Assembly (NCBI RefSeq): GCF_023702065.1
Contig: NZ_QFDM01000002.1
Coordinates: forward strand, 248,001 to 312,000
Reading direction: 5' to 3'
DNA length: 64,000 nucleotides
From: Methanoculleus oceani
Lineage (GTDB): Archaea > Halobacteriota > Methanomicrobia > Methanomicrobiales > Methanoculleaceae
A program made the translations under genes and the position numbers. Below, piece after piece: positions 24,581 to 49,158 of this stretch (within the stretch, counting starts at the first letter, position 1; every line of letters begins with the position of its first letter). The notes under the pieces were generated by a model. That model was not told the origin of the DNA and searched no databases. It worked only from the letters and a program-made list of their open reading frames with translations.

Positions 24581-24583
24581 CCA

Positions 24584-25369
24584 ATGGCAATCGAGGCAAT
24601 CGAAGAGGAGTTTCGGAGGAAGGTCTGCAGCCAGATTTATCTCCGCCCGGAGGGTATCAACCGGTACCGGGTCTTCACACCGTTTGTCTTTGACGATGGG
24701 GATAACCTCGCGATCGTCCTGAAGGATGAGGACGGCGCCTGGACGCTGACGGATGAGGGGCATACCCTCATGCACCTGACCTACTCGATCGACGCAAGGG
24801 AGTTAGAGCGGGGAACCCGCCAGAAGGTGATCGCGAGTGTGCTGTCCCGGTTCGGGCTGGAGAACAACCGGGGCGAGCTCGCTATCCGCATCACGGGCGA
24901 CCGGTTTGGGGATGCCCTCTGGAGTTTCATCCAGGCGCTGATCCGGATTTCGGATCTTACGTATCTGTCGAGATCGCGCGTTTACTCCACGTTCCTGGAG
25001 GATCTCCGTGCGCTCATCGAGGAGGCTGTCCCTGAGGGGCGCAGGGAGTTTGACTGGCACGATCCCGAGCACGATCCAGAAGGGAAATACACCGTTGACT
25101 GCAGGATCAACGGCATGCAGAGGCCGATCTACATCTTTGCGCTCGCGAACGACGACCGGGTCCGTGACGCGACGATAAACATCCTGCAGTTCGAGAAGTG
25201 GGGGCGGCCCTTCGTCTCGGTCGGCGTATTCGAGGATCAGGAGGAGGTCAACCGCAAGGCCCTCGCGAAGTTCAGCGATGTCTGCGATAAGCAGTTCTCA
25301 AACCTGCCGGGGAACAAAGACCGGATTATGCAGCACCTCCGGGATATGGCCGGGACGGCTTCCGGCTGA
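24584..25369 (+). CDS. DUF1828/DUF1829 domain protein
   Basis: The 261-residue protein shows the DUF1828 N-terminal pattern ([33 protein letters not shown]) and, from about residue 150, a DUF1829-like region ([32 protein letters not shown]). The families have no established activity. The gene follows its neighbour by 3 bases. GC content is similar to the host, unlike the AT-rich gene that follows. Confidence 0.75.
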
Positions 25370-25877: not shown

Positions 25878-28800
25878 CTATAACTGAACTTGTATGATTC
25901 TCGCCTCAAGTTCATCCAGTTGCCACCTTTTCACGGGGTTCTGAATCTTTTCGCAGATCATGATACCCTCAGAGGGGCTATAATAGACATGGAAGATGAA
26001 ATATCTGTCACCGGATTCTTTAGCTAGATCCCACTCATTCTTAGATATCATAAACGCTTCTCGTGGTTTAATTGATGATTTCACTTCGATATAGATCTCC
26101 TTACCACTTTCAACGACCTTGATATCGTGACCATATCCTCTATCATTACCTTTACGGGTCTTGTTGTGCCAAATAACTTCAGTCGCGATATCGCCATTTT
26201 GAGAGAGGACAAAACCATCTTCGGTGTCGCTCATAGATGCACCAGGATAGCGTTTTTGCATCTCCTGTTTTAGATCCTGGTATACAACTTCCTCACCCCA
26301 GTGACCAATCTCGAGTCGCTTATCCTCTTTATACCGCTCTGATTCGGGGATCTTTTCTTCAGACTCTGGCCTTTCAGGCAATTTATTCGTCTTCAAATCA
26401 TTGGGGTTACCCTTTCTTTGGCGGGGAGAGAAGGCGACATGGACTAATCGGACTAATTCCGGGTTTTTGCTAGTTAATATATCTATATCCTCATTTTCCG
26501 GCTCAAAGGAGCGGTCTTCGACATTTCGATGTTTCGATGGCTCTTCGGGGTGCGATAGCGTTCTAGGTTGCCCCGATTGCGATCGGGAGGGGATCCCACC
26601 TAAACCACTATCATTATCTCTTGGGGGAGGTGTTGGTAGGATACTGGAACTTGGTGGAATAGGCAACGGTTCTACAGCATCTGAGTTTGAGGAGATTTCT
26701 TCAGGTAATAAGCAGTTTTTCGACGTAGTTCTGGAAATGGATGAAGTCTCAAGTTCGCTCTCCAAGGGTTTTTCTTTCGGTTTGAGCAACGTTGGGGTAT
26801 CCTGCACCTGATCTATCGCATTTAATGAAGTAAACCATTCGACCTCACTATATGGCAACTGTGGGATCTTTACGGAGTCAAGGAACTTTTCAACGCTCTC
26901 TGAATTTGGATGTGTAAACAGATGACATATAAAAATATCAAGATCTTTAATAGGACCAAAGAATTTCGCGAACTCGATAGGGACTTGGGATTGATCGATT
27001 TTGCCGACGTAGAGGGTATTTCCATCAAGTAAAACATCTCTGGTAGTTTTTACGGCCCGATTTCTAAGAATGTACTCTACATCGATGCGATCAAGCAATA
27101 CACACTGAATGTCTTTTAGATTAATCAGTTTATGACTGCTCTTTAAACGATCGTAATCCTCTGGATGTTTATTGTAAAGATATCGCAGAATATAGGGGGT
27201 TAAATCCTGTATACGCCGAGTCAATTCAGGTGCATTTTTGAGAGTCTGATGACGGCCGTCTGTAAGGACGCATTTCACTGACTCCGACAGTTTTGAGATC
27301 TTTGCGTACTTGACAAAATGTTCTAGATCCCGGAGGTCTGTAATATCTACTGCCAGGAATGCAATGTCTTCCCATTCGACAAACAGATCATAGAGCGCAG
27401 GATCATCATTAGCAAAAACGTCACCATCGTTACGCCAGAACTGCTTTTTGTTAACCCACAACAAGAACTTACCCGTGAAATCCTTCCACCATGAAACATT
27501 CGAATTTCCCGGGTATTGTTTTAAAAGTCTATTAAATTCTTTATAGATTGTGATAATCTTTCTCTCATCAACCTCCGATCGCTCCGCGTTTGCTGAAATT
27601 TGCTCAAGGGTTGTTACGAGATCCTGGGGGGCAGGCCTTTCCTTTACAACCAGACCGTCAATAAACAGGCCACGGCACTCCGAATACCAGGTTCTCAATG
27701 AGGGCAAGTGTTCTTTGAGGTTGTCAAATTGACAGTCCCAGAACACGTCATCCGCAGTGAAATACTTCTGATCAGTTTCAGGGATAAAGATCAAACGTCC
27801 TTCCCGAAATGCGTGCAGGGCTGGAAACGGACTCTGCTTCGGTGGAGGGTTTAAGTAACTTCCCGAATACGTTCGTTTAGGGATCAACTCTTGGAGAAGT
27901 GAATAGAGATATTTAAACTCTTCAACGTTCTCGGATCCAGATCGCACCTTACTATCAATCACTTCGATTATTTCGTTGATGTCTACGCTTGTCCGTATCT
28001 CTACATCGTTGATGAATTTAGTATGTTGCTTCGGATCTATATCAGAACCAATGTACTTTATGGAATTTTCAAGGATCCTCCTAATATCACTGCTATTCAA
28101 AAAAAGGCCTTTTAAGGGGGCAAAAGTTCCGTCCGTGGTAGTAACCCATGGGAACGTCTTCAGCTTAAGAAGGAAGGTTGTTTGTGTTTTATCGTACTTC
28201 CATCCATGCTCACCCAGATAACGGTAGTAATATCTGCATTCAAGGCACCCTCGATAGTCGTCCCAGTTATCCAAAAACAGCTTAAATAGCATAAAACTGA
28301 TGTCTTTCTGCTGTGCTGGAGCGGACTTACAAAAACAGCCAAAAATACGATCTAAATCTGCGCTAATGTAATCGTCCTCGATAAAATATGCTGATTCCGT
28401 GTTCTTCCATCCGCTGGAACCCCAGAGCGTGTTTTTAAAATCATACCGATAAATTCTTTTCTTTGTCACCACATTATTGGCTCTCTCTCCACCCTCATAA
28501 CGTTCTGTCTCAGGATCGAGTAAAACAAAGATGCCCTCACGAACACCAAGGGCCATTACAAATTCCTTCCAAGAGGATACAACCTCCATTTTTCTTTTTT
28601 GATAGGGCTCAACTTGTTTCTGGACCTGCGAACGCTTTTTTGTACGTTTTCCCTTCTTTGGCCTTGACTCCGCCAGAATTTGTTGAATTTCAGCGTCGAT
28701 ACTTTTCAAATCGCTCCTGATATAACAGGGATGGAGGGAATTCTCTAGGAAGAAGGTCTCTCCGGCAGCAGCCATAGTAGAAGAGAGGTGATACCTGCTT

Positions 28801-30755: not shown

Positions 30756-30787
30756 GTCCGATCACTGAACGAGAGTGCACCGAACAC

Positions 30788-30826
30788 CATATAAGGTTTT
30801 GCAAACCTATTCGAGTGCAATCGAAT
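30788..30826 (-). promoter_or_regulatory. Promoter of the sacsin-type gene with two small palindromes
   Basis: On the minus strand the TATA-like CTTATATGG lies about 33-40 bases before the start at 30755. Directly upstream of it are two palindromes: AGGTTT-TGC-AAACCT (30794-30808) and ATTCGA-GTGCAA-TCGAAT (30809-30826). They lie where a repressor or activator would act. Confidence 0.45.
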
Positions 30827-30926
30827 TTCAGTTGCTACTAACAACCTCGGCCCTTCACTTTCTCCAAGAATGGTATTACCGGCAATTCAGACTTCGGTAC
30901 TCTACAACAAATTCCTTGAAGCAGGG

Positions 30927-32249
30927 TTACAGATGTAATCCATCTTCGGAGAACAACTTCAGAATCTTTGCAGATGGATATGTGGATAATGAGGCAATCC
31001 CGTTGGCGAGTTCTATGGGTAGGAGCGCTCCCTCATATCGATTGCTCAGAATCGTCGGGAGTGTGGCAAAAATCCTCTCCCACCCAATGAGATCTTCTGA
31101 TCGGGGATTTTGAGTATACGATCCAAATGGAATGTTCAGAACCATCATGTGATAATTGTTCAGTTTAACAAAGACTTTCGCACCATAATTCGTATCCTTT
31201 CCATATGGGGCACCATTTTCTGGGCGGCACTGGATGTGTCTCTTGATGTAGAGATCCTGCAGGGTAAGAAAACTCATTGTTGGTGCATCTTTACCTATAA
31301 ACTGCAGGTGATCGTAGAATGTCCCTGACTTTTCCTGTCCTATAATGTGTATGGGATGACCGCTCTCCTGGGCATAGTCAAGGAATAACCTGATTGGTTC
31401 AACTAGTTTTGAATACTGGGCACGAATTGAAAGAGGGCCATCCTTCAAGAAGAGGCACTCCGACAACAATTCGCGGTGGTTCTCCCAAAACAATCTGACC
31501 GCAGTGAATAGGAGAAGTGTTTCATGCAGGATCATATAGGTGGAGGCAATTGTCGGTGAAGCTGCTTCTTCTCCCATATCGAGATGGAAGCCAAGGAAGT
31601 CGGTGATGTACACCTCCTTTCCGCACACGGGACACCTACCACTTTCAGCGTTGTAAGGGAGAGTGGTCAGATGTTTACTTCCTTCATGTCCATGCGGGCA
31701 TTCAAATTCGGGCAGACCCCTCTTAGTTTCCCCCCATTTCCTGTATGCAAGCCACTTGAGAGTCTCAAGGATTTGACCATTCATTCCAGGGGAGGCATCG
31801 CAGATGGACTTATAGATCGTTTGGCGGACCGTATCGTAGATAGTACTCCCTTCACTCCATGTGTTTCGTAGCGGGAGCAATGTTGCATGGAATATTACCG
31901 ACTCTCGCAGGATGTCACGTAAAACAAATGGATGTGGATTTTCCTTATCCACCCTTGCGAGTGCATGAGTATCAAGTTTTATCATGGCTGTTTTGATGAA
32001 TGCTATGGAGGAGTAAGGAACTGTATCATGGTCAATCCTCTGCAGAGATCCGTCCACTGCAAAGATGTACTTGAGTGGTTCTCCAGAGTTCGGCATCTCT
32101 TGCCATTCAACAGTTCGGCATTCATCAGGCACATACTGGCGTTTGAAACTCTCAAGTAACTCGTTAACCAGCGGGTAATCGAGTATATCCAGGTGGCCCA
32201 GTCGGCTGGCACGTTCCCCTGGAAGCCGCGATCCCTGCTGGTACGGCAT
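30927..32249 (-). CDS. NurA-domain nuclease, partner of HerA
   Basis: The 440-residue protein has the NurA motif YIFAVDGSLQRID (about residue 63), whose aspartate binds the catalytic metal. A zinc-ribbon-like insert is present (CPHGHEGSKH and later CPVCGKEVYITD). The C-terminal segment (GALLPIELANGIASL) has the position of the NurA end, where an Ala-His is usual but Asn is seen here. It starts right at the HerA stop (TAAATG), so the two are translated together. HerA-NurA hexamer-dimer machines resect DNA; this accessory pair is more likely used in defence than in housekeeping repair. Confidence 0.8.
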   Translation of the reverse strand: MPYQQGSRLPGERASRLGHLDILDYPLVNELLESFKRQYVPDECRTVEWQEMPNSGEPLKYIFAVDGSLQRIDHDTVPYSSIAFIKTAMIKLDTHALARVDKENPHPFVLRDILRESVIFHATLLPLRNTWSEGSTIYDTVRQTIYKSICDASPGMNGQILETLKWLAYRKWGETKRGLPEFECPHGHEGSKHLTTLPYNAESGRCPVCGKEVYITDFLGFHLDMGEEAASPTIASTYMILHETLLLFTAVRLFWENHRELLSECLFLKDGPLSIRAQYSKLVEPIRLFLDYAQESGHPIHIIGQEKSGTFYDHLQFIGKDAPTMSFLTLQDLYIKRHIQCRPENGAPYGKDTNYGAKVFVKLNNYHMMVLNIPFGSYTQNPRSEDLIGWERIFATLPTILSNRYEGALLPIELANGIASLSTYPSAKILKLFSEDGLHL

Positions 32250-34259
32250 TTATGCACCCCTGTGAAAAGAAGACTGAGGAGCAAATTTGTTTGCCTGGAC
32301 AGGGATCACAAAGCGGTGTGACCGAGTGAGCATCCGCACATATCCTTGCGTTTTTGTCTGGAGTATATCTTCGATGAGATCTTCGTATGCTACATTCAGG
32401 TTTGCGAGTTTGGTGACCTCCGGCCGCGAGGAGATATGAGTGACAAAGAAATTCTCTGTTTGTGCAAGGAGATCCCGACTGATAGTTGACGGCGATTGGG
32501 TGGAATATACCATACCAAGGTGATATTTTGCACCCTCTTTTGCTATCCTGCTGTAGATATCGACGATTCTCTGCTCGTCAGCAGGGAACAGGTTATGGGC
32601 CTCCTCGAAGTACAGTTGGATATAGTGATCATTGAGCATGTTTGACGAGAACAAATCAACCTGATAAGCAAAGATCTCCTCTGAGAGCCATCGTGAGAAG
32701 TAACTCATAACCTCAGGATGCGCGTTGCTTAAATCGAGAATGACAGTCTGTCCCTGATCAACAAGTTGGATTATCTCGGTCACAAAGTTTGCAGCGTTCG
32801 GATCATGGTAAATCCGATACCTTTGGAGTTTCCTTGGGCCGCTTGCAGATCTCGATCGCGGGGCTAAGAATCCAAGCAGCGCCTCGTCGTCAGGGTCAAA
32901 AAGGTTACCCCCAGAGGTTGACTGAAGTCTTCGGTCACCGCGATCTCGTTGCGCGAAGAGTTCCAGTTCATGTGCGAGTTCTTCAAGTGTATTTATAGAC
33001 TGGGGCATGGCTTCATTGGCTGACTGATACACATCAGTTCGTGTTTGTTGTGCAAACCTTGGATTTACACCCCCTAACTGCCGGATTGTATCCATGCTTG
33101 GGACATAGCCTGCCCTATGAAGAATAGCCCAGTACATCAAGATTTTCCTGCGAGCCCGGTTTTGATCTCCCCGCCCCTCCATCCTGTTGATCTCTTGGAA
33201 GGAAGGAATCTCTACCGAAAGGAAACTATTGGCGTAATCAGGGGGATGCCGCTCCTGCTCGCGGATGAATGTGGCGAGAATGTTATGAGAGATATCAGGA
33301 TGCGCATAGAAATCCAGTCGAAGCGGGTGTGACGGTGTATTGGCCTTGGATGTGATGGCATAAACCTGACAGTCTTCAGCATGTGCAGTTGCCAGAGATG
33401 CACTATCATCTTGAGGATTATTGTTGGCGTACTCACCGTTGATGTCGAAGATGACCTGCCCTACAGTATGCGTCCGAGAATCTTCCTCTGTGGGTATCCT
33501 TCGGGTCGTTTGGATGACGCTCTCGGCAATGATCTTTACAATATTACTTTTACCCGTGCGTGTTTTCCCAAACATGGCAGTTCTAGTGCCCTTAAAGTCA
33601 TTTGTGGATATCGCCACGGGGACTGTGTGAATTGTCTGCCCCGGCAATGGCAACCGACATTCGGTCAATCGTAATGTCCCAATATCGCACCTGTTTTCCA
33701 GTGGAACCGTGGCGTTTATGATGAGATCAAGGAGTTCATCACTGGGGGCATATACAAGGTACTTGTGAGCGCTCACGATGTTATTGAGGTCTCCGGAAAG
33801 TTCAACCGCATTCGGTCGGTCAGGGTGAGGGTAATACATCCCAAGGACTGCCGTCTTCAATGCACCCCACTGAAGCTCACTTTGCGTGAATACATCAAGT
33901 TCCGGCATGGACTTTTTGTGCAACTCGAAGTAGGTCTGCTGCTTCTCCTGTTTCAATGGTTCATCCGCTGTTTCCAGGACCCGTAGCAGAGAGAAATGAG
34001 GAGGATATTTTTCGTACTCGGCAGGGACCATGATGAGGAGCGAGTTCCGGGGGATGCCTCCAACAAGAACTTTGAATGCATCCGACGTGATGATGGTTGC
34101 CGTAGTGTAGCCGATTTCGAGTACGTATCCCACAAATCGAGAATTCTCATAATCCCCGCTCGTGACCTTTCGTTTTTCTTCCACCAGAAAGTCTGAAAGT
34201 TTCCGCAACGGATGCTCCTGCATCGCCGCATTGCTGCAGAATGCCTGCATATTCATCAT
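32250..34259 (-). CDS. HerA-type FtsK/DUF87 hexameric ATPase
   Basis: The 669-residue protein has an N-terminal HAS-barrel-like region (FVGYVLEIGYTTATIITSDA), then Walker A MFGKTRTGKSNIVK (about residue 233) and FDINGEYA. Walker B is YIQLYFEEAHNLF (about 550), and STQSPSTISRDLLAQTENFF is the HerA/TraG-like sensor region. I start at the ATG-ATG at 34259, where ATGA overlaps the Dam stop; the longer frame runs back inside the Dam gene. HerA translocates DNA for the NurA nuclease encoded next. Confidence 0.88.
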   Translation of the reverse strand: MMNMQAFCSNAAMQEHPLRKLSDFLVEEKRKVTSGDYENSRFVGYVLEIGYTTATIITSDAFKVLVGGIPRNSLLIMVPAEYEKYPPHFSLLRVLETADEPLKQEKQQTYFELHKKSMPELDVFTQSELQWGALKTAVLGMYYPHPDRPNAVELSGDLNNIVSAHKYLVYAPSDELLDLIINATVPLENRCDIGTLRLTECRLPLPGQTIHTVPVAISTNDFKGTRTAMFGKTRTGKSNIVKIIAESVIQTTRRIPTEEDSRTHTVGQVIFDINGEYANNNPQDDSASLATAHAEDCQVYAITSKANTPSHPLRLDFYAHPDISHNILATFIREQERHPPDYANSFLSVEIPSFQEINRMEGRGDQNRARRKILMYWAILHRAGYVPSMDTIRQLGGVNPRFAQQTRTDVYQSANEAMPQSINTLEELAHELELFAQRDRGDRRLQSTSGGNLFDPDDEALLGFLAPRSRSASGPRKLQRYRIYHDPNAANFVTEIIQLVDQGQTVILDLSNAHPEVMSYFSRWLSEEIFAYQVDLFSSNMLNDHYIQLYFEEAHNLFPADEQRIVDIYSRIAKEGAKYHLGMVYSTQSPSTISRDLLAQTENFFVTHISSRPEVTKLANLNVAYEDLIEDILQTKTQGYVRMLTRSHRFVIPVQANKFAPQSSFHRGA

Positions 34260-35101
34260 GAGGACACCTCGTTTACGTGGTAGATCACCATTTCCCCAGG
34301 ATCCGTTGTTATCTGTCCGGGGCTCGAACCGGTCCCTCTGTCGAGCCGGTACATAGAGTAGTCGTCGTATAGCGCAAGAATGTCCGGATGAGACGAGTTT
34401 GTCATGACCCACTGTACTCCACGCTCTGTAGCCTCACGAAGGCACGATGCAAGCCTCTTGTGGTCCTCGAAGTTGAACTCGCCGAACATGTAATGGGCAT
34501 GCAGTTGTTCACGTTCACCCGGGCGGTATGGGGGGTCAAGGTAGAGAAAATCACCTTCACGACATGAGGCAATGGTTTCCTCAAAATCGCAGCAAAGTAG
34601 AACTGCGTGCTGGAGCCACTGTGCCGCCGTGTGGAGATCATCCGGTCCTATTACCCAGCGTCGTTCCTGACCTCCGTAGCCCACGTTGAATTCGCCGTTG
34701 TTGTTGTGGCGCCACATGCCTTTGAAGCAGGTTCGATTCAGGTAGAGAGTTCGTGCGGCTCGCTCCAGAAGATGAAGATCATCACGGTTCAGGCTCCTTA
34801 TTTTGTAATATCCCGCCCTGTTTGCCGGATACCTGCTGTAGAGTTCCCAGACAATATCCGGGTTTTTCCTGATGCCCAGATACAGATCGATGAGTTCTCT
34901 GTTAATGTCAGAAAGGATCGACTTTTCGGGATTTACATGGAAAAAAACTGAACCACCCCCTAGAAAGGGTTCGACATACGTCCGGACGGATTGAGGTTCA
35001 AGAGGGAGGAGATGAGAGAAATAGCATACATACCTCCGTTTCCCCCCAGGATAGCGCAATAATGAGAGATTTTTCTCTATACTGGCAGTCTGGGACATCA
35101 T
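34256..35101 (-). CDS. D12 class DNA adenine N6-methyltransferase (Dam-like)
   Basis: A 281-residue alpha-class MTase: motif X/I RYPGGKRR and YVEPFLGGGSVFFH (SAM binding), and catalytic motif IV FLYLDPPYRPGER near residue 195. The Dam-type recognition region lies between (NRTCFKGMWRHNNNGEFNVG). It heads an overlapping Dam-HerA-NurA unit with its own TATA box (35116-35124) and an AGAGGAG ribosome site. Methylation of host DNA would protect it from the HerA-NurA nuclease, as in restriction-modification. The recognised sequence (GATC or other) cannot be read from the protein. Confidence 0.88.
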   Translation of the reverse strand: MMSQTASIEKNLSLLRYPGGKRRYVCYFSHLLPLEPQSVRTYVEPFLGGGSVFFHVNPEKSILSDINRELIDLYLGIRKNPDIVWELYSRYPANRAGYYKIRSLNRDDLHLLERAARTLYLNRTCFKGMWRHNNNGEFNVGYGGQERRWVIGPDDLHTAAQWLQHAVLLCCDFEETIASCREGDFLYLDPPYRPGEREQLHAHYMFGEFNFEDHKRLASCLREATERGVQWVMTNSSHPDILALYDDYSMYRLDRGTGSSPGQITTDPGEMVIYHVNEVSS

Positions 35102-35115
35102 AAATAAGGCTCCTC

Positions 35116-35124
35116 TTTATATAG
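35116..35124 (-). promoter_or_regulatory. TATA box for the Dam-HerA-NurA unit
   Basis: CTATATAAA on the minus strand, 15-23 bases before the ATG-ATG at 35101, with AGAGGAG between them. It is in the 144-base gap after the EVE gene, which contains no other gene. The spacing is short, so the exact start of transcription is uncertain. Confidence 0.4.
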
Positions 35125-35245
35125 CATATAGCAAATGTGCTAGGCTAATGGTGATTATGCAGAGTCGGCATAAAAAAGATTCGTAACGGCCCCGACAGAT
35201 GAATGTTTCTAGGCTGGATGTCCGTTTGCACCGTTGCCTTGCGGA

Positions 35246-35689
35246 TCAGGATTTTGCAGCATTCAGGATTGTCTGATAGTCCTCCTCCGGAATCACCCGC
35301 ATGGCCTGCCGTATATGCCCGGTCCACATCGTTTTATTGGTAATAAATTTCAGCTTCGGGATGAGCGGTTTGAACTCTACTGGAGGGTCGAAAACCTTCA
35401 CGGGCTTCAATTTTATCCGGTACGGGAAGACCTCGTCACCCATCTGCTCCGGTGCGACAAACACCTTCGTTCGCTCCTCAAAAGGCTCAGATACCACCTC
35501 GAACGCTCCGGTTACAGCCGATGGAAGCAGTGTATCATTCTCTTTCTGCTGCGACACATAAATGAGAACCGTATCTCCAGGTTTCACCCGTTCGATGATG
35601 CTTTTGTTGCGTTGAGGGACTCCCCAGATATTCTTCTTCCGGGTGATCTCCCAGTTTGTCCGGTTGGATATGGCAAGCCAACGAGTCAT
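35246..35689 (-). CDS. EVE-domain protein
   Basis: The 147-residue EVE (PUA-like) domain protein begins with the family N-terminus MTRWLAISNRTNWEI and shows KKNIWGVPQRNKSIIERVKP, GDTVLIYVSQQKENDTL and the C-terminal LKFITNKTMWTGHIRQAMRV. EVE domains bind modified bases such as 5-methylcytosine derivatives and are often fused or linked to restriction enzymes. An alternative ATG at 35740 overlaps the Res stop (ATGA) and would add 17 residues; I chose 35689 because it matches the usual family start. Either way the gene belongs to the Res-Mod unit. Confidence 0.85.
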   Translation of the reverse strand: MTRWLAISNRTNWEITRKKNIWGVPQRNKSIIERVKPGDTVLIYVSQQKENDTLLPSAVTGAFEVVSEPFEERTKVFVAPEQMGDEVFPYRIKLKPVKVFDPPVEFKPLIPKLKFITNKTMWTGHIRQAMRVIPEEDYQTILNAAKS

Positions 35690-35736
35690 GCAGAGTGATT
35701 GCGAGAAAGAGACGTAAATGTTTGGTTTGATGGTTC

Positions 35737-38700
35737 TCATGAGAGAACGAATTCAAACAACTCACCAATAAAGTCTGATTGGTAAAGGGAAAGAACGTGA
35801 TACTTTTTTCGCTGCTCCTTTGTCTTGTAAAGATACGGCTCTGCCACCGCGCCCGGCTGGCTCACGGAGATGATGAAGGAGTCGAGCGATACTCCACATT
35901 CAATGCCTTTATTCCGGTATGTTGCATTGATCTTCCGCTCGATCTCCTTGATGTCCTCTGCTAGTTGCACCTTTTCATCTTCAGGCCCGGAGCTGAACAC
36001 CATCCCATGCGGCTCAATGAAGACGATATGCTGCTTGCTGTCGTCGACCACCCACATAATGAAATCCGGGTAGAACCACGAATTTTTGTAAAACCCTACA
36101 CCGGTTTTCGGGATGTTGCGAAGCAGGTAGACCTTTTTCCCATCAAAGAGATCTGCGTGCTCATCAATGTAGTTCTTAATCCCCTGCACCAGTTTTTCTT
36201 CGCCGTCGTTGAGCCCCTCCGGGGAGATCGCGGCGATTTTACTCGAAGCCTTACTGGTTTTTGCGAGCAGAGGCTGATACAGGTGATTCCGGAAGAAGAC
36301 ATTGGTGACAAATTTTGTGTTCCCGTCCGCATAGATCCGGTCGACCTGCTGGACGAGTGCATCGATTGCCTCGATTACGTCCGTCTTGTTTTCGTGGACT
36401 TTCACGACGTACTTCTTGAACTCGAAGTTACCGTGTGACTCCGAGAGGTGCTCGATTCGGATGGTCTCCATCATCCATGCGTTCTTCTGCCGGCTGTACG
36501 CGACCTGGAGCGATTTTTTCAGGACAAGCACAATCACGTCCTGCAGTTTCTGCACATCCTCAAATGACTGCGGTCTGACAACGTGGTCGGCACAGTACAG
36601 GGTGTAGCACCCGGGGTCTTCTATGATCTCCCGTAGCAGGGTTTTGTCAAAGACCATGTTCTTCCAGCCCTTGCTGCCCTTGTGCTCAAGGAGGGTGAAA
36701 TACACCACGTCCCAGTCAACGAGAACCAGGTAGCGCGGGTCGATTGAGACGGGGTCGGGGCGGGAGTCGGCTTCCAAACCCTCGTAATACACGCTGTCCT
36801 CACTCTCCACTTTGGCAAGGAGATCGACCTTTACCGGGACGATATGATCTCTGGCCAGGACGAACCGCCGTTTCCTCTCAAATCCGGTCTTCTCCCAGTG
36901 GGGGATGAGTAGGCCTTCGCGGAGGTGATTTTCGCAGACTTTGATTGCGATCTGGCGTTCAACGGTCTTGTAATCGTCAACACCTTCGATGGTGAGGAAC
37001 TCGCGCAGGTAGCCGATGTACTTGGCGTCGACCCCGAAGATGTTGAGCGTCTCCAGAAGCGGGAGGTTCAAGGGTTGGTCGCCGGCATCGTTGGTGCTGC
37101 GTTTGAGAGAGTTGTTCCTGCCCTTGAGCCGGACCCCGCGCCCGAAGAGCTGGATGATCTCGGTCCCCTCGCTCTTCCCGATATTGATGAGCCCCATGCA
37201 GGAGACCCGGTAGCAGTCCCAGCCTTCGATGAACTTCTTCGCACCGATGAGCACGTTCACGGTGGAGTCCGGAGCGTCGATGGCGCGGAAGAGCGATGGA
37301 TGATCGATCCTCTCGATATCGATCTGCGGCTCGTGCTCTTCGACGATCTTTATGAACTTCGTTGCGTCTCCGACGTAGATCTCCCCAAAGAAGTCGTTGT
37401 CGCCGCTTTTGAGGCCGATCTCCCCGTCGGTGTTCTTCAGGAGCACGAGGGTGAGACCGGCGGCTTCGGCGCACCGGAAGATGCGGCCGAGCATGTCGCC
37501 GTAGATCTCCTCCGCGTTCAGCCCCCGCTCCCTGAGGTAACGGAGGCGCTGCTCGGGGTAGGCCGGACTGAAGAGGTCGTGTTTGGTCTTTTCGTGGAGC
37601 AGGCCGGACTTCCCCTGGAGAAATTCATCTATGGTCCGGACCAACCAGTCTCGCTCGTTGAGAACCTTCTGCAGGAACCGGACGACCGTGAGCACGTCGG
37701 ACTTGGTGCCGGAGACGTTGACCTTGCTCCCCACGAATATCCAGAGCGGGTCGGCGATGTTGTACTCGGCGGTGGCGACGTCCTTGATGTCCTCAAAGAC
37801 CAGTTTCTGCTCGTAGTAGGTGAGGAGGTTTGCGAGGAGCACCCGGTCCGTTTCATACGTGGATTTGTTGACGTTAAGGATGCGGTACTCCTTGCCGTAG
37901 CCATCGTTGTAGAAGTGCGGGTAGGAGTAGTCGAAGAGGATGGTCTTGGCAAATTCGGTTAGGTTGTCGTTATCGCCTCCGGAAGCCGCCGCCTGCCCGA
38001 AGGTGGCGCTGTACTCAAAGGTAAATCCTTCCCGGGCGACTTCGCGCCGGAACATCTTCCATTTCTCGCCGCCGCTGCCCTTGTGAGCCTCGTCTACGAA
38101 GACGAGGTTCTTCCTGCCGAAACTCTCGATGTCCACCCGCTTGAGGCCGCCGTCCTGCTTGTCCTCAGTGAACCGCGTGATCTCGATAACGTTCACGGCC
38201 TCCTCGGACTGCCGCTGGAAGTAGCCGCCGAGCCCGGTGGCGTCGAACTCGGTGCACGGGATGCCGCTCTTCTTCATCTCCCGGAGGTGCTGGGCGGTGA
38301 GGTCACGATTAGGGGTGATGAGGAGAATGCGGTCGATGTCCAGGCGGTGAGGACCCCTGTTGTAGTGCTGGAACTGGAGGTAGGCGAGGTGGATGAGGAA
38401 GGTCTTGCCCGAGCCGGTAGCCATCCAGTAGGCGCACTTGCGGAGGTCGTCCATGCCGGGCATGTACCGCTCGTAATACTCATAGGGGTCCAGGACAGAC
38501 GAAGATGTTTCTTTGATATATTCCTTCACCGATTCCTCGACCAGGGAGGCGAGTTTCCCGGGGCTCTGGAAGTAGCGATCCAGGTAGGCCTCGGTGAAAA
38601 GGGCGGCGAGCCACTGGTAGTACTTGAGGTTGATGGGAACGTCGCGATGGGCGTTGATGCGGTGCATGTGGCGCACGACGTTGTCGTCGTAGTTCCGCAA

Positions 38701-38949
38701 CTCATCGAGCGTGACGCTGGCGTCTTTCCGGAACCGGGTGTCGCTCTTCAGGACGTGGTAGTAGTGGGTGTGCCCGTCCTCGCCCTCGCCCTCCTCGACG
38801 CCGGCGAGAGTCCCCTGGAAGTCCTGGAAGGACTTCATCCCGAAGAGGCGGTACGCAAAGGCGCATTTGACCAGCCACGGCCGGAGTTTCCCCTCCTTCG
38901 AGGATTGTCCTGGCGTTTGCCCTCTTTTTCGTCCCCGCTGTGCCGCCAC
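35737..38949 (-). CDS. Type III-like restriction helicase-nuclease (Res)
   Basis: The 1070-residue protein is a superfamily 2 helicase: Walker A MATGSGKTFLIH (about residue 178), DEAH box NLVFVDEAHKG (about 285), FIEGWDCYRVS and the motif VI region IQLFGRGVRLKG. Near residue 970, GVGFYKNSWFYPDFIMWVVD then QHIVFIEPHGMVF looks like a PD-(D/E)xK nuclease, with E-P-H in place of the usual D/E-x-K. I start at the GTG at 38949, 4 bases after the Mod stop; the longer open frame overlaps Mod out of frame. It should act with Mod as an ATP-dependent restriction enzyme. Confidence 0.85.
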   Translation of the reverse strand: MAAQRGRKRGQTPGQSSKEGKLRPWLVKCAFAYRLFGMKSFQDFQGTLAGVEEGEGEDGHTHYYHVLKSDTRFRKDASVTLDELRNYDDNVVRHMHRINAHRDVPINLKYYQWLAALFTEAYLDRYFQSPGKLASLVEESVKEYIKETSSSVLDPYEYYERYMPGMDDLRKCAYWMATGSGKTFLIHLAYLQFQHYNRGPHRLDIDRILLITPNRDLTAQHLREMKKSGIPCTEFDATGLGGYFQRQSEEAVNVIEITRFTEDKQDGGLKRVDIESFGRKNLVFVDEAHKGSGGEKWKMFRREVAREGFTFEYSATFGQAAASGGDNDNLTEFAKTILFDYSYPHFYNDGYGKEYRILNVNKSTYETDRVLLANLLTYYEQKLVFEDIKDVATAEYNIADPLWIFVGSKVNVSGTKSDVLTVVRFLQKVLNERDWLVRTIDEFLQGKSGLLHEKTKHDLFSPAYPEQRLRYLRERGLNAEEIYGDMLGRIFRCAEAAGLTLVLLKNTDGEIGLKSGDNDFFGEIYVGDATKFIKIVEEHEPQIDIERIDHPSLFRAIDAPDSTVNVLIGAKKFIEGWDCYRVSCMGLINIGKSEGTEIIQLFGRGVRLKGRNNSLKRSTNDAGDQPLNLPLLETLNIFGVDAKYIGYLREFLTIEGVDDYKTVERQIAIKVCENHLREGLLIPHWEKTGFERKRRFVLARDHIVPVKVDLLAKVESEDSVYYEGLEADSRPDPVSIDPRYLVLVDWDVVYFTLLEHKGSKGWKNMVFDKTLLREIIEDPGCYTLYCADHVVRPQSFEDVQKLQDVIVLVLKKSLQVAYSRQKNAWMMETIRIEHLSESHGNFEFKKYVVKVHENKTDVIEAIDALVQQVDRIYADGNTKFVTNVFFRNHLYQPLLAKTSKASSKIAAISPEGLNDGEEKLVQGIKNYIDEHADLFDGKKVYLLRNIPKTGVGFYKNSWFYPDFIMWVVDDSKQHIVFIEPHGMVFSSGPEDEKVQLAEDIKEIERKINATYRNKGIECGVSLDSFIISVSQPGAVAEPYLYKTKEQRKKYHVLSLYQSDFIGELFEFVLS

Positions 38950-38953
38950 GCCC

Positions 38954-41900
38954 TCATGCCCCCATGCGTTTCTTGAACTCGGGCTCGAGGGGCGTTGCCC
39001 GAGGTGCGAAGCAGTGGCCGTTGACGTAGAGAACACCGGTATCGGGGAACTCTCTGAGGATCTCGTCGGTGATGAACGCCGCATCCGCTTCTAGCACTTG
39101 CTCATGACCAACGGGGTTCTTCGGGGAGTTGCGCCAGACGATGGTGACGGCCTTGCCGTCGGGGAGGACACCGTGGACGATCCGATAGATGAGGCCGCCC
39201 TGGTGTCTGACCACCCGGCGCCGGACGTGCAGCCCGAGGAGGTAGTTGAAGGTCTCGACAAGGTCCACGGTTACCTCACGGAATCCGTCCTCGTCAACCG
39301 GGACATGGTCGAACCCCACATCGCGGCGGACCCGGAGGGTGTAGGCGAACGGCGTTGCCAGCCGGTCCACGTTCAGCCGGCACGGGCTCTCCCGGGTCTC
39401 GACGTCGAGGAAGTAGCGGAGCATGTAGTCGCTCATGCCGAAGATGGTGGCCTGCACGTGGCCGTCCCGGTCCAGGAACTCGATGTTGTTGAGCGTGTCC
39501 TCGTACTGCTCCAGTTCCATGTACTTGAAGATGTGGCTCTGGCCGTCGGTGTCCTGGGGTTTGCCGTCCTTCCAGTTGGAGGAGAACATGACTTTTTCTA
39601 TTCGAGGTATGATCACCGAATCAAAATAATCTCCAATTTCGACGAGAATGTAAGGGCGATTACTATCATCTTCTTTTTGCAGGTTTAGCACCGCATGAGC
39701 TGTAGTACCCGAACCTGCAAAGTAGTCGAGGACTACTTCACCTTCTTTCGAAGATAGGGCAACACACTGCATTATTAGAGACGAAGGCTTGGGGAAACTG
39801 AACAATGTGCCTAACCCAATATTTCCAATCTCAATGGTTCCAGTTTCTGTCAAAAACTCATTTTCAGTCCAAATTGATTTTGGTTTGTACGTTGTTTTCC
39901 GATATTTTTCATAAATACCAAATTCTCCAGTTCGCTTTTGTTTTGCAACAATGTTAGAGCGAAGTGGATTTTCAGAGGTATTTCGGGATAATTTTTCTTT
40001 ACCCCATCTCCAACAACTTTCCATGCCTTCAGAATTAAGCGGTAAAACTTCCACGCAATAGTCCTTCTCTTTGCTTAAATAGACAGGGTGAAAGCCATCA
40101 TGATCGTAGATATTTGGATTCACATATACGGGATAGAATAGATTAGGACGATTATGCTTCCCGAACTTCGGGTTACGGTTTCTGAGTTCTCGGATATTAA
40201 AATTGCCTATCTCATCGGACATATTAAGATCGTCAGATACTCCGGATTTTTCCAATTCGAAAAATTCAGCCTCATCATCCTTTTTTGTGAATACGGAAAC
40301 GTATTCATGGGTTTTTGCAATGGGCTTATATGTCTGACCACGGCTATTTGCCCTAACGATAATTTCAGAAAAAAAATTCTTCTCCCCAAAAACGCCGTAT
40401 AATAAGTTTATGATCTCAAAATTTTCATTATCGTCATTGCTTATCCAAATTGTAGAACTATTATGCATCAAAGGTTTTGACAGTTGTAACCTATCCCCCA
40501 TCATACTCAACCAGCTGCTGTGCTGGTAGTTATCCCGATAGATGAACTCATCATTCCCCGTATTATACGGCGGATCGATGTAGATGCACTTCACCTGCTC
40601 CCGGTACCGCTCCTGCAGGAGATTCAGCGCCTGCCAGTTCTCGCTCTTGATCATCAGCCCGCCGATGGCCTCATCGAGGTCCTCGACCGGCGTGCCATCC
40701 GGGTGTTGCAGATGTTCGAGCAGCCGGTCCGTGAAGTCTTTGTCGAAGAACGCCGTGTCGATGACGAGGTAGGGGTGGCTCTGCAGGAATGCCTCATCGA
40801 CCCGGTCGCCTGCAAGCGTCTTCTGTCCACCCTTCGCCTCCCCGATACCATAGAGGCTCAGCCACTCGGCCAGCTGCCTCTCGTTCGCCAGGATCTCGGG
40901 GTAGAACTCCTCCGGCACGTGGTCGAGGGTCATGCAGTAGCCGGTCCGGATGACGAACTTCTTCTTCTCCCAGAGCGTCTTCTGGAAGTCCTCAAGTTGC
41001 GCTAGGAAGTCGATGATCCGGTGGGCGATGGACTTCAGCACCTTCGCCCGCTTCACGTAGCGCTCCACCGCCACCTCGTTCTCCGTCCCGAGGTCGTCCA
41101 GCCGGAAGACCTCGTTCTTGATGTAGAAGTCCAGTTCCTGCCGGAGGAACCCGCCGAGATCTTTGTGGATGAAGAAGTCGCTCGTGTTCTCCTTCGTAAA
41201 ACTCATCACGTGCTTGTAGAGCCGCGGGTTCCTGTCGGTATCCCGTTCGTTCGTTTGCAGGGCGTCGATGAGCCCCTTCGGGATGCCATGACCCTGCAGG
41301 ACCTCCGCCACCAGCCCGGCCACGATATCGTCTTGGTTCGGCTTCTGCCGTCCGGCCCCGGGCGGGAAGCGACTGAGGAGGTCGTCGTCTGAGAGGGGCA
41401 CCTGGGCGAACCTGGCGGTGAGCAGCCGTTTTTCTTCGTCGTACGTCACCGCATCATCGCCCGCGAGCACGAAGTACCGGCCCTTGCCGTTCCCGTTCGA
41501 CTGCCCTTCGACCTGCACCACCTCGAAGAGCACCCGATACGATCCGACGTCGAATCCATGGCCTTTCAGGAACCGATCGGTCTTGATGTAGTACTGGTCC
41601 TTGTTCGCCCAGTGGAGCAGCACCTCCTCGCCGTTGTAGGGCACCGCGTACTTCTCGTTCGCCGCATACCGCCTGAGCGAGAGGAAGTCACCGTCCTTGT
41701 AGTAGCGGGAGAAGAACTCCTCCAGGTGAGCAAAGATCTCTGCCTTCTGCAGATCGCTCATCGAGGCTTCTTCGGCATCGCGGCGGAGGTGCTGCCACTT
41801 TTCATGCAGTTCTTTGCCTTTTGCCGCCTTTCGATACTCCTCCTTCAGGCCATTTACATCAAGGGCATCATCCCCGTACGTGTTGCGGATGGTCTGCTCA

Positions 41901-42160
41901 AGTTCCTTGAGTTCGCTTGCGATCTGGGTGCGGCTCTCCTTGTCGTACTTCCCGAACTCAGCATCGACAGCCTCGATCAGGTCTTTGTCCATGAACCGCG
42001 TGATCTCGTCCCGCTTCTGGTTCATGATCCGGTAGACACCGAAATCAAGGTCCGGCGAGTCTATCTGGAATAGTTCGGCGAGTTTTTGCTTCAACTGCTG
42101 TTTATGTCGTTTCAACCGTTCTTCCTGGTGTTTTGCTGTCTTCGGATCCATATCAATCAT
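38954..42160 (-). CDS. Long beta-class DNA adenine methyltransferase (Mod-like)
   Basis: At 1068 residues this is far longer than ordinary type III Mod proteins (about 650). Residues 1-500 are a helical, charged region of unknown role (HQEERLKRHKQQLKQKLAEL). Motif IV CIYIDPPYNTGNDEFIYRDN is near residue 530 and motif I LDYFAGSGTTAHAVL near 817, the beta-class order with the target-recognition domain between. The last 200 residues (TPFAYTLRVRRDVGFDHVPV) form another unknown domain. The ATG at 42160 overlaps the UvrD stop (ATGA). The stretch between motifs IV and I is AT-rich compared with both flanks. Confidence 0.88.
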   Translation of the reverse strand: MIDMDPKTAKHQEERLKRHKQQLKQKLAELFQIDSPDLDFGVYRIMNQKRDEITRFMDKDLIEAVDAEFGKYDKESRTQIASELKELEQTIRNTYGDDALDVNGLKEEYRKAAKGKELHEKWQHLRRDAEEASMSDLQKAEIFAHLEEFFSRYYKDGDFLSLRRYAANEKYAVPYNGEEVLLHWANKDQYYIKTDRFLKGHGFDVGSYRVLFEVVQVEGQSNGNGKGRYFVLAGDDAVTYDEEKRLLTARFAQVPLSDDDLLSRFPPGAGRQKPNQDDIVAGLVAEVLQGHGIPKGLIDALQTNERDTDRNPRLYKHVMSFTKENTSDFFIHKDLGGFLRQELDFYIKNEVFRLDDLGTENEVAVERYVKRAKVLKSIAHRIIDFLAQLEDFQKTLWEKKKFVIRTGYCMTLDHVPEEFYPEILANERQLAEWLSLYGIGEAKGGQKTLAGDRVDEAFLQSHPYLVIDTAFFDKDFTDRLLEHLQHPDGTPVEDLDEAIGGLMIKSENWQALNLLQERYREQVKCIYIDPPYNTGNDEFIYRDNYQHSSWLSMMGDRLQLSKPLMHNSSTIWISNDDNENFEIINLLYGVFGEKNFFSEIIVRANSRGQTYKPIAKTHEYVSVFTKKDDEAEFFELEKSGVSDDLNMSDEIGNFNIRELRNRNPKFGKHNRPNLFYPVYVNPNIYDHDGFHPVYLSKEKDYCVEVLPLNSEGMESCWRWGKEKLSRNTSENPLRSNIVAKQKRTGEFGIYEKYRKTTYKPKSIWTENEFLTETGTIEIGNIGLGTLFSFPKPSSLIMQCVALSSKEGEVVLDYFAGSGTTAHAVLNLQKEDDSNRPYILVEIGDYFDSVIIPRIEKVMFSSNWKDGKPQDTDGQSHIFKYMELEQYEDTLNNIEFLDRDGHVQATIFGMSDYMLRYFLDVETRESPCRLNVDRLATPFAYTLRVRRDVGFDHVPVDEDGFREVTVDLVETFNYLLGLHVRRRVVRHQGGLIYRIVHGVLPDGKAVTIVWRNSPKNPVGHEQVLEADAAFITDEILREFPDTGVLYVNGHCFAPRATPLEPEFKKRMGA

Positions 42161-44892
42161 GCTCGCCACCTGCAAATGCCCTGATAATCGCACCGCTCAC
42201 AGACCGCTCCCGGACATGCCGTGAAGTCGCCCGAGAGAATCCGTCCGATATCCTCCTCTACACGTGCCATCGTCCCTGCAACGGCCTGCTCGGTCACATC
42301 CACAGTGTCCACAGCAGCCTCCTCGAGGAATGCCACCGAACCCCGGGAGACGGTTTCGCCGACCACGCAGAGGCCACGGGTGTAAAGCTGCACCTGGAGC
42401 GCCGAGTCCTCGGGAGTCGTCGCCGTGTCGGAGGTCTTGTAGTCGCGCACCTCCACAGCATCCCCATCATGGAGGATGACATCCACCTTCCCGGCCACAA
42501 TGGCGTTCTGCACCGGGAATTCGACCCTCGTCTCCACTTCCCGGATCCGGAGCATATCGTCGCGGTACTTCTCCGCAAATCTCATTAGATGGTTCTTTGC
42601 TGCGTGCTTAATCTTCTCCATTCGTCCCTCGGTCATGAACGGCATGTAGAAGTTCCGGTCCACTGCCGTTGCCACCGCAATCATCGGAGACAGACCCTCG
42701 TTCTTCATCAGGTCCGCAGCTTCCCGGAGGCAGAAGTGCAAGGTCTGCCCGTACCCCAGATAGTCGGTGAGACCCGGCTGGTATCCCCAGAGATGCCGAA
42801 GCCTGTAGAAGTAGCCGCACTTCCCGTAGTCCACAATCTCACCGGCAGTAAATGTACGCAGTTCGTCCACAGCGCCGCCGATCGCATAGTCATGATCCGG
42901 CAATGTGTCTCTCTGTGAGAGAGGTTCGACGTGAGGCAGATCCTTGATGTCATTTACAAAAGCGCTCTGTCCCTTTCTTCGCCCGTTCATGGACGTGAAG
43001 TAACTCACCACAGCCGCGTCCTTCGCCCGGGTCAGCCCCACGTACATGAGTTTGCGTTCGCTCTCCAGATCTCCCTCGTATTTCGCCACATCGAAGAGCT
43101 CCGGGGATATGAGCCAGGTTCTCCCTCTGCCCACCATGCTTGACGGGAACCGTTGCCGGACCATGCAAGGCACAAATACCAGCGGCCACTCCAGACCTTT
43201 GCTCTGGTGAATTGTAACTAGCTGCACAGCGTCCACGCCGCCGATGTCGTCGCCGGTCTGCTCTTCGTACTTCGAGGACGCGTAGGTGTTCAGGTACCAG
43301 CACAGCCCTTTCAGGTCGGCCTCCCAGTTCCTGCGCCGCCCCCCAAGCATAATTGCCGTTTCGTAGTCGGTCAGGAGTGTATTGAACCGGCCCAGATTCG
43401 CCATGACAACCGCATGGCGTATATCATCAGGATCGAGCTCATGATGCCTGAGCAGAATGAGCAGTTCTCCGAAGACCTGAGAGAAGTTATCGTAGGTACT
43501 GTTCAGCACTGAATCCTTCCAGCGGCGAAGGTTTACTACATCGGAAGCCCCCAGCGCCAGATCTGGAACACCCTGATTCCAGTTCTCCACCGCCTCTTCA
43601 AGCAGATCCTCACCTCGGAGAGCAGGCAACCTTGACCACTTGCCCTGCTGCCAGAACCCATCTTCCCACAGCCATGCAAACAACTGTCCTATGCCCAGGA
43701 TCTCTGGCCGGCGGAACAAGCCCACTTTTCCGCCAACGACAAAGGGTATATCACGGCGCCTGAACTCATCGATAAAGGGGGGAGCCGAGGTGCTTACACT
43801 CCGAAAGAGGAGCGCGATATCACTGTAGTTGCATTTCTCTTCTCTAACAAGCGCCTGAATCTGATCCGCAATCCAGTCTACCTCGGTTATATCGCTCTGC
43901 ATCTCTGCCAGATACGCCCCGCCCTGCTCACGGCGAACCGGATCCATGTGGTCGTAGTGCTGGTCCTCAAACGTGTCCGAGAACCCGTTAGCCGTCTCGA
44001 TCACTGCTACGGTCGAACGGCGGTTCTCGGTTATGTGGATGGTGACCGCCTCCGGGTACCGCGTAGTAAATTCCTCGAAATACAGTTCGTCGGAACCACG
44101 CCACTGGTAAATTGTTTGCCGTGGATCGCCGACAACGAAGATGCTCCCTCCCAGTCCAATCAGCCGGATGAGTTCGTCCTGTGCGCGGTTAATGTCTTGG
44201 TATTCGTCGACAATGAGGTATTTTACGTGTTCTGCCACTTCAGGACGGTGCTGCAGGTTCTCCACTGCAAGCTGCACCATGCGGTTGAAGGTAAGCCGCT
44301 TATGCTGATCCAGTGATGCCTCGTAACGGCGCAGTTTTTCAAGGAGCTCTCTATCTTTCTTTTTCCTCAAATTCCCCTCCGGAATCATCTCGCCGTAGTA
44401 GACATTCAGAGAGTTAACAAAATCCTCACAGTTGGTGGCATAATATCCGGATCGCCCGAGCCCCAGGGCCCACCCAACCCGCATAAGGTACGCCATCTCT
44501 TGCTTGTCATCAAGCACGCCCCAGTCCCCGTACCCGAAGTGCTCCTCCAGAAGACGATAGCAGTAGCCGTGAATGGTGCCAATGAACATCTCCCCGAGGC
44601 GGGCACAGATCTCATCTCCGCCAAGGTGCTTCACACGCTCGTACACACGGCTCTTCATACTCTGTGCTGCTTTTTCCGTGAACGTGAAAGCGACAATTGC
44701 AGACGGCTCCACCTGTTGTATGAGGAGGAGGTAGACAATCCGCCGGGTCAGAGTCTCTGTCTTTCCAGCCCCTGCGCCTGCAATGATACGGATGTGAGTG
44801 CGATCGCAGAGGACGGCACGCCGTTGTCGATCAGAAAGAGGCCTGGGTTCGTTGAGGATTTTTTCGGTGAGTTTGTCAGGGGAAAGGGACAT
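42157..44892 (-). CDS. UvrD/PcrA-type helicase with C-terminal RecB-like Fe-S nuclease
   Basis: The 911-residue protein starts with superfamily 1A helicase motifs: LSDRQRRAVL (Q motif), IIAGAGAGKTETLTRRI, YLIVDEYQDINRAQ, FVVGDPRQTIYQWRGSD and VQLVTIHQSKGLEWP. The C-terminus holds a RecB-family nuclease (VAGKVDVILHDGDAVEVRDY, then KTSDT) framed by cysteines at GKCGYFYRL and CPGAVCERCDYQGIC, the iron-staple arrangement of AddB and Cas4. It is first in the UvrD-Mod-Res-EVE unit, with TATA-like ATAAATAGTG at 44921-44930. Confidence 0.9.
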   Translation of the reverse strand: MSLSPDKLTEKILNEPRPLSDRQRRAVLCDRTHIRIIAGAGAGKTETLTRRIVYLLLIQQVEPSAIVAFTFTEKAAQSMKSRVYERVKHLGGDEICARLGEMFIGTIHGYCYRLLEEHFGYGDWGVLDDKQEMAYLMRVGWALGLGRSGYYATNCEDFVNSLNVYYGEMIPEGNLRKKKDRELLEKLRRYEASLDQHKRLTFNRMVQLAVENLQHRPEVAEHVKYLIVDEYQDINRAQDELIRLIGLGGSIFVVGDPRQTIYQWRGSDELYFEEFTTRYPEAVTIHITENRRSTVAVIETANGFSDTFEDQHYDHMDPVRREQGGAYLAEMQSDITEVDWIADQIQALVREEKCNYSDIALLFRSVSTSAPPFIDEFRRRDIPFVVGGKVGLFRRPEILGIGQLFAWLWEDGFWQQGKWSRLPALRGEDLLEEAVENWNQGVPDLALGASDVVNLRRWKDSVLNSTYDNFSQVFGELLILLRHHELDPDDIRHAVVMANLGRFNTLLTDYETAIMLGGRRRNWEADLKGLCWYLNTYASSKYEEQTGDDIGGVDAVQLVTIHQSKGLEWPLVFVPCMVRQRFPSSMVGRGRTWLISPELFDVAKYEGDLESERKLMYVGLTRAKDAAVVSYFTSMNGRRKGQSAFVNDIKDLPHVEPLSQRDTLPDHDYAIGGAVDELRTFTAGEIVDYGKCGYFYRLRHLWGYQPGLTDYLGYGQTLHFCLREAADLMKNEGLSPMIAVATAVDRNFYMPFMTEGRMEKIKHAAKNHLMRFAEKYRDDMLRIREVETRVEFPVQNAIVAGKVDVILHDGDAVEVRDYKTSDTATTPEDSALQVQLYTRGLCVVGETVSRGSVAFLEEAAVDTVDVTEQAVAGTMARVEEDIGRILSGDFTACPGAVCERCDYQGICRWRA

Positions 44893-45039: not shown

Positions 45040-45468
45040 ATGAGTGAGATTGTCGGCGTCACCTTCCCCGTCCCGAAACACCTCATGCCCCGGTTCTTTC
45101 AGGACGGTAAAACCGTCTTCATCAAGCCCGCCACCGTCTTCAAAGAACTCCGGAGCGGCATGAAACTCGTCTTCTACCAGTCCCATGAGGATACCGGCTA
45201 CGTCGGGGAGGCGACGATCAAGCGGATCGTTATCAACGAAGATCCGCTCGCGTTCTTCGAAACCTTCGGCGATGCGGTCTTCCTCACCCGGGAGGAGGCC
45301 AAAGCCTACGTCGAAAGCCAGGAACGGTGGCAGGGGGTTCGGGTCAGGAAGGAGGCGCCCCGGAAGCGGTCCTGGATGGCGCTCGAACTCGCGGATATCC
45401 GGGAGTACGACACGGTCAAGAAACCCGAGCGGTTCGTCCCGGTCGGGGGAAGGTATCTGCGAGAATAA
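45040..45468 (+). CDS. DUF365 family protein (PUA-like)
   Basis: The 142-residue protein matches the archaeal DUF365 pattern: IVGVTFPVPKHLMPRFFQDG, TVFIKPATVFKELRSGMKLV and FYQSHEDTGYVGEATIKRI. The fold is thought to be PUA/ASCH-like, so an RNA- or modified-base-binding role is possible. No activity is established. GC content is high as in host genes, so it may mark the host side of the island. The message appears leaderless. Confidence 0.8.
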   Translation: MSEIVGVTFPVPKHLMPRFFQDGKTVFIKPATVFKELRSGMKLVFYQSHEDTGYVGEATIKRIVINEDPLAFFETFGDAVFLTREEAKAYVESQERWQGVRVRKEAPRKRSWMALELADIREYDTVKKPERFVPVGGRYLRE

Positions 45469-46600: not shown

Positions 46601-46838
46601 AATCTCCTCGTTTCACCGCCCTCAGGGTATTGCCCAAATATCACCATGGACCCGTTGTGCTCTTCTCTTCCAGATTGACAATCTCTTCTCGGTCGTCAAA
46701 TACTTTCTGCCGGTACTCAACTCCCCGTTAGGCCAGACATCTAGCATAACGGCTCCAGATCAGTTATCCGGAGCAACAGAGACATTTAAGAATCTTTTTC
46801 GACTCCTCACTGAATAGTATACCATCAGGAGCAACTTA

Positions 46839-47681: not shown

Positions 47682-47687
47682 TAGACG

Positions 47688-48008: not shown

Positions 48009-48032
48009 CAGAACTTCAGATAAATGAGGTTA

Positions 48033-49157: not shown

Positions 49158-49158
49158 G

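Follow-up and report, generated by a model that had tools for sequence, protein, structure and literature searches.

Described systems related to the locus

In TdpABC, phosphorothioation serves as the self-mark. Type III restriction by Mod and Res proteins and the degradation of DNA ends by UvrD/RecB-type helicase-nucleases are established for these families, and Tiamat, whose protein we take to be the one modelled as TmtA in PADLOC, is known as a single-gene system. Genes related to these systems lie side by side in an eight-gene block at positions 25878-44892 of the window (the whole 64-kb stretch of DNA analysed here). Three of the genes resemble TdpABC (PDB 8wet, 8wfd, 8y1k) in combining a HerA-family hexamer, a NurA-fold nuclease and a DNA-modification gene; among solved structures, the top-ranking relatives of the window's HerA and NurA proteins are TdpA and TdpB. 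They differ from it in that the third gene encodes a Dam adenine methyltransferase and the phosphorothioation enzyme TdpC is absent, in the zinc-ribbon insert of NurA, and in that the unit is sometimes joined to a UvrD-nuclease and a type III restriction-modification (R-M) system. The adjacent Mod and Res genes, with PADLOC E-values <1e-140 and a variable target-recognition region, share these traits with type III R-M, but their operon adds a UvrD-nuclease and an EVE protein, and the catalytic lysine of Res is replaced by histidine in this lineage. Like Tiamat, TmtA is a single giant gene with a GHKL-type ATPase; here, however, it is placed beside a larger block.

The other HerA-based defence systems (HerA-SIR2, HerA-DUF4297, MADS, DndH and BRC capture) share a HerA/FtsK-family translocase with the block, but their partner effectors are absent from it, the partner here being NurA together with a methyltransferase; descriptions of the HerA/FtsK capture systems (PMC10853773, PMC12839542) do not mention NurA. 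MADS (mad1-8) was rejected, as PADLOC yields only a weak generic mad8 (HerA-like) match in the block. The UvrD-family helicase has PADLOC matches to GajB of Gabija but bears its own nuclease domain, and Gabija was rejected because none of the eight proteins matches GajA (ATPase-TOPRIM) in PADLOC. A likeness to Hma, a DUF499-centred BREX-related system (PMC12839542), had also been suggested by the original prediction; it fails, since Pfam and PADLOC searches find no DUF499 ATPase (HmaC) among the eight proteins. No single model in PADLOC or NCBIfam covers the whole gene set, and neither Dam-HerA-NurA nor a type III R-M system with a UvrD-nuclease or EVE was found described in a survey of open-licence literature, whose silence is weak evidence.

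Organization of the block

The block spans 19 kb and consists of eight consecutive minus-strand open reading frames at the positions originally claimed, in the 5' to 3' order UvrD-nuclease, type III Mod, type III Res, EVE, Dam, HerA, NurA and TmtA. Open reading frames and profile searches bear out both this arrangement and the claim that housekeeping genes are lacking: Pfam, PADLOC and NCBIfam find none among the eight proteins, nor any mobility gene inside the block. The gene identities first assigned are also right, including that of NurA, although profile libraries miss this protein in the window. Three start codons were revised, to ATG at 42160 rather than 42193 for Mod, GTG at 38949 rather than 39084 for Res, and ATG at 34259 rather than 34412 for HerA. 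The G+C content of the block is 0.42-0.57, compared with about 0.59-0.69 in the outer parts of the window. Its flanks are syntenic with those of two congeners that have the same block, and the island lies beside a tRNA-Arg gene.

The genes fall into three transcription-like units: UvrD/Mod/Res/EVE, Dam/HerA/NurA, and TmtA alone. Four-base-pair overlaps (ATGA) occur at the UvrD/Mod, Res/EVE and Dam/HerA junctions, Mod and Res are spaced by 4 bp, and HerA and NurA by 0 bp. Real gaps are found between EVE and Dam (144 bp) and between NurA and TmtA (171 bp), and TATATAAA sits immediately upstream of Dam. The division into three units, proposed earlier from overlaps and TATA boxes, therefore stands.

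The UvrD-Mod-Res-EVE unit

The first gene (42157..44892, minus strand) encodes a 911-aa UvrD-family SF1 helicase with a C-terminal PD-(D/E)XK nuclease domain (RecB/AddB/Cas4-like), identified by Pfam matches to UvrD-helicase (1.3e-48), UvrD_C (6e-33), PDDEXK_1 (1.9e-18) and Cas4 (3.7e-6). Its Walker A (GAGAGKT), DEYQD and nuclease (D...DYK) motifs are intact. Mod (38954..42160, minus strand), an N6/N4 DNA methyltransferase of type III R-M, matches PADLOC MTase_III PDLC03646 (4e-173) and Pfam N6_N4_Mtase (2e-32), and Res (35737..38949, minus strand), an SF2 helicase/translocase, matches PADLOC REase_III PDLC03654 (8e-143) and Pfam ResIII (4.5e-12). The unit ends with a stand-alone EVE protein (35246..35740, minus strand; Pfam EVE 1e-25, NCBIfam PRK00809 207 bits), a PUA-like predicted reader of modified bases.

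Residues ~600-840 of Mod are only 12-38% identical to those of congeners G008 and G026, whereas the rest of Mod is mostly 82-98% identical and Res mostly 83-100%. We read this as a swap of target-recognition regions between congeners within an active R-M system. The C-terminal PD-(D/E)xK-like motif of Res reads YPDF...IEPHG, with histidine in the lysine position, and its own cleavage activity is uncertain because of this substitution. Among 14 aligned homologues, histidine is found in the window, G008, G026, G413, G021, G066 and G309, and lysine in the seven others. A loss of the Res nuclease restricted to loci in which units are joined was not established, as three non-joined loci also carry histidine.

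The genes UvrD-Mod-Res occur in the same order without HerA-NurA in G036, G135 and G378; they are also present in G021, where the contig stops after Res and the neighbourhood is incomplete. Other genomes have Mod-Res without this UvrD. An EVE gene comes after Mod-Res in G216 (Mod-Res-EVE), and one adjoins UvrD-Mod-Res in G413. UvrD-Mod-Res is a putative type III R-M variant that exists on its own.

Several further genes accompany UvrD. A DUF365 protein (7e-37; 45040-45468) is encoded divergently from it; G008 has a copy of 90% identity in the same position, and in G036 a related fragment adjoins a stand-alone UvrD. UvrD and Mod of G008 are separated by the insertion of a gene for a 981-aa NB-ARC/TPR (STAND-type) protein (L031:10214-13159). 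Next to UvrD in G413 and congener G026 lies a gene for a 303-aa DUF5655/NucS-like protein (L082:11833-12744 and L032:12952-13863), the G413 copy of which corresponds to PADLOC PDC-S18. Related genomes (L036, L037, L038) also contain a second form of UvrD-nuclease, about 1,120-1,150 aa long and 50-51% identical to that of the window, which stands alone without Mod-Res.

The Dam-HerA-NurA unit

Dam (34256..35101, minus strand; 281 aa) is a Dam-family D12 class N6-adenine DNA methyltransferase (TIGR00571: 195 bits, cut-off 114.85), with a DPPY motif that is invariant across six homologues. HerA (32250..34259, minus strand), a predicted hexameric DNA translocase, matches Pfam DUF87 (1e-9), and its best match in a PDB search is TdpA (8wet, 7.8e-23). 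A profile of the family built from 23 members retrieves TdpA with 144 bits (4.9e-41), followed by the next structure with 82 bits (2.6e-22), while the HerA entry 4d2i scores 63 bits.

The third protein (30927..32249, minus strand; 440 aa) has no match in Pfam, NCBIfam or PADLOC, and PDB sequence searches return nothing useful, zinc fingers at best. Its AlphaFold model reaches a pLDDT of 88.4 with an alignment of 19 sequences, compared with 39 when six sequences are used. In Foldseek, the model matches TdpB (8wfd_G, 5.7e-9), Deinococcus radiodurans NurA (3.2e-7) and Thermococcus kodakarensis NurA (1.4e-6), and TdpAB entries hold ranks 1 and 8. Distant plasmid homologues are annotated as NurA, and one of them exceeds the Pfam NurA cut-off. 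According to the model, the protein thus has a NurA fold and is a TdpB-like, RNase H-like nuclease with a zinc-ribbon insert.

A genome scan with the NurA alignment found the gene in a Heimdallarchaeote and in two bacteria, one of the Anaerolineaceae and one of the Blastocatellia, all three with tight Dam-HerA-NurA operons that adjoin neither Mod nor Res. Whole-genome searches add G413, G771, G154, G581 and G803, that of G154 being on a short contig with an incomplete neighbourhood; a scan of viral contigs found no NurA relatives. Stand-alone Dam-HerA-NurA operons thus occur in Asgard archaea, Euryarchaeota (other Halobacteriota), Chloroflexota and Acidobacteriota, with about 49-73% identity and gaps of -4 to +23 bp between genes. 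Within the phylum the distribution is patchy (NurA in 6/393 genomes).

The Tiamat gene

TmtA (25878..30755, minus strand) combines an N-terminal GHKL/sacsin ATPase with a C-terminal DUF3883/NOV_C region (Pfam SACS and NOV_C). PADLOC TmtA model PDLC03972 covers residues 8-957 only (8e-189, 628 bits), and the full-length protein aligns to a second PADLOC TmtA model. When 46 genomes were searched with tblastn, by which a distant TmtA could be missed, the gene was found in three congeners that have the block, at one site, and in 0/43 others. Since it accompanies the block only there, TmtA looks like a separate, stacked defence gene, and a single eight-gene system including it was rejected. Compared with congener G026 (L033:9516-14390), TmtA is 96-100% identical at the N-terminus, but identity drops to 39-78% over its C-terminal half, against mostly >90% for the genes around it; the C-terminal half may carry specificity.

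Repeated joining of the two methyltransferase units

The block probably combines two DNA-restriction machines, each licensed by methylation, which evolution has brought together repeatedly, with a Tiamat gene as neighbour. The original prediction of a composite holds for the seven genes of units 1 (UvrD-Mod-Res-EVE) and 2 (Dam-HerA-NurA), which are rejoined in G413, G653, G1041 and, in part, G539, and does not extend to TmtA. Each unit exists alone, yet the two are joined in unrelated genomes. Adjacency in this locus alone, named by the original prediction as grounds for discarding the composite, is therefore not what is seen for units 1 and 2, whereas in the tblastn search of 46 genomes it is what is seen for TmtA. 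The full block occupies one chromosomal site in three congeneric species and therefore counts as a single join. In G413, from another family of the same order, EVE, UvrD-Mod-Res and Dam-HerA-NurA are contiguous, with 38-60% identity. Three Chloroflexota provide the remaining cases: in G653, HerA-NurA-UvrD-nuclease-Mod-Res form one operon, with Dam on the other strand adjoining Res; G1041 has Dam-HerA-NurA-UvrD-nuclease-TPR-x-Mod-DUF3800-x-Res on one strand; and G539 has Dam-HerA-NurA-UvrD-nuclease without Mod-Res. In these loci (22-31% identity) UvrD and its nuclease are encoded by separate genes, and UvrD is only about 26% identical to that of the window. Mod and Res there belong to PADLOC type III families other than those of the window, which indicates that the set was assembled there from different relatives.

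Approximately unbiased (AU) tests reject a single clade of the window lineage and G413, with p 3e-58 for UvrD and p 3e-8 for Res; the HerA tree places the window with the Dam-only G771. Barring several losses, joining therefore took place on at least two occasions in archaea, and again in Chloroflexota. Mod and NurA co-occur in 4/393 genomes (p 1.5e-4) and, counted per genus, in 2/136 (p 0.08), the latter value not being significant because few genera carry Mod and NurA. The archaeal loci keep units 1 and 2 as separate transcription units, and most Dam-HerA-NurA loci lack Mod-Res. Overall, units 1 and 2 are likely coupled. Whether the coupling goes as far as one integrated system is more doubtful: we regard as possible, though less likely than not, that the UvrD-nuclease, Mod-Res and Dam-HerA-NurA cooperate as three motors with two licensing methyltransferases on one invader, within an unnamed HerA-NurA restriction family whose modification module is interchangeable (Dam, N4/N6, type III Mod or phosphorothioation).

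Defence islands cluster unrelated systems, which makes chance adjacency more frequent, and plain stacking would have type III R-M, Dam-HerA-NurA and Tiamat share insertion hot spots with no cooperation. Such an account draws on the occurrence of both units alone elsewhere and of Tiamat as a single gene, on the DarTG pair and other accessory genes that adjoin the block, and on the position of the island by tRNA-Arg between conserved flanks. For TmtA it is the best reading. For the block as a whole we consider it less likely, given that the same two units meet again in G413 and also in Chloroflexota, where they mostly share a single operon whose genes overlap by 4 bp, and that at least two separate joins are counted in archaea.

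A HerA-NurA family with changing methyltransferases

More distant HerA-NurA pairs (about 22-31% identity) have a DNA methyltransferase adjoining nearly every locus, an adjacent one being absent only from a cyanobacterial plasmid lineage of the family. The methyltransferases belong to unrelated classes: Dam, a second Dam clade, permuted N4/N6 and other N4/N6 enzymes. Permuted N4/N6 enzymes lie beside HerA-NurA in G228, G538, G586, G920, G1052 and on Halorarius and Deferribacter plasmids, other N4/N6 enzymes in G499, G615 and G1064, and Dam-like enzymes beside the distant pairs of G936, G539 and G1041. A motor-nuclease that stays constant while its modification gene varies is the pattern expected of a restriction system whose self-mark can be exchanged, and by analogy we read Dam-HerA-NurA as a methylation-guarded counterpart of TdpABC. 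One end of a prophage, Vibrio phage 10N.286.54.E5_PE002 (L148, 1-5751), carries an integrase, a split HerA, a NurA homologue and a methyltransferase, which together make a mobile HerA-NurA system.

The same comparisons bear on the view of the block as a cluster for DNA repair or genome maintenance, in which HerA-NurA would act in double-strand-break repair and the UvrD-nuclease as an AddAB-like end processor. Classical archaeal HerA-NurA is reported to resect DNA ends (PMC12977600), and the fold matches NurA of Deinococcus and Thermococcus; this view is nonetheless improbable, for the nearest solved relatives are TdpA and TdpB rather than classical HerA or NurA, presence is patchy, family members are found on plasmids and a prophage, and the partners are methyltransferases of several classes. 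Least probable is the reading of the block as a selfish element module that excludes competing elements, its methyltransferases serving mobile elements in anti-restriction or regulation, for although HerA-NurA with a methyltransferase adjoins a Vibrio prophage integrase and others reside on plasmids, the block holds no mobility gene and occupies the same chromosomal site in three species.

Proposed mode of action

Under the favoured reading of two methylation-licensed machines, unit 1 is a type III R-M system equipped with a helicase-nuclease of its own. Mod would methylate a variable target site on host DNA, Res would translocate from unmethylated sites and trigger cleavage, and the UvrD-nuclease would unwind and degrade the resulting ends. 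EVE probably senses modified bases and may guide the system towards invader DNA that carries them, a role suggested for the EVE proteins that partner other restriction systems (PMC7641849). Unit 2 would work like TdpABC, with adenine methylation replacing phosphorothioation: Dam would mark host DNA, and the HerA hexamer would pump unmarked duplex DNA into NurA for shredding, the methyl mark stopping the pumping on host DNA. Each methylation would accordingly block its nuclease partner, and the joined units would bring three ATP-driven nucleases, with two self-marks, to bear on one invader. The targets are presumably phages or plasmids, consistent with a predicted anti-phage function.

If this is right, phosphorothioation is not an obligatory partner of the TdpABC motor-nuclease, which is a member of a wide family with different self-marks, and how the HerA-NurA machine reads 'self' becomes testable. 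It would also mean that type III R-M has repeatedly recruited an end-degrading helicase-nuclease and a second methylation-guarded machine, separately in archaea and bacteria, and that systems counted apart by PADLOC-type tools may act together.

Accessory genes beside the block

The defence island stretches to about 51 kb of the window through genes at 45605-51123, which encode a NERD-domain protein, a PLD-like nuclease with a zinc-ribbon tail, and a protein of the HNH_4 family that is weakly similar to Cas9-HNH. At 48033-49773 lies a DarTG toxin-antitoxin defence pair, consisting of the macro-domain protein DarG (PADLOC 3.5e-89) and DarT (7.8e-39). On the other side of the block, a DUF1828 protein (24095-25369) corresponds to the PADLOC candidate PDC-M24B (4.7e-23) and adjoins a weak DUF6978 match. 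A 12-bp tandem repeat, TTACTTGTTCGG, occupies 22788-22895 within a small open reading frame (22582-22974) and codes for a repeated TEQV peptide.
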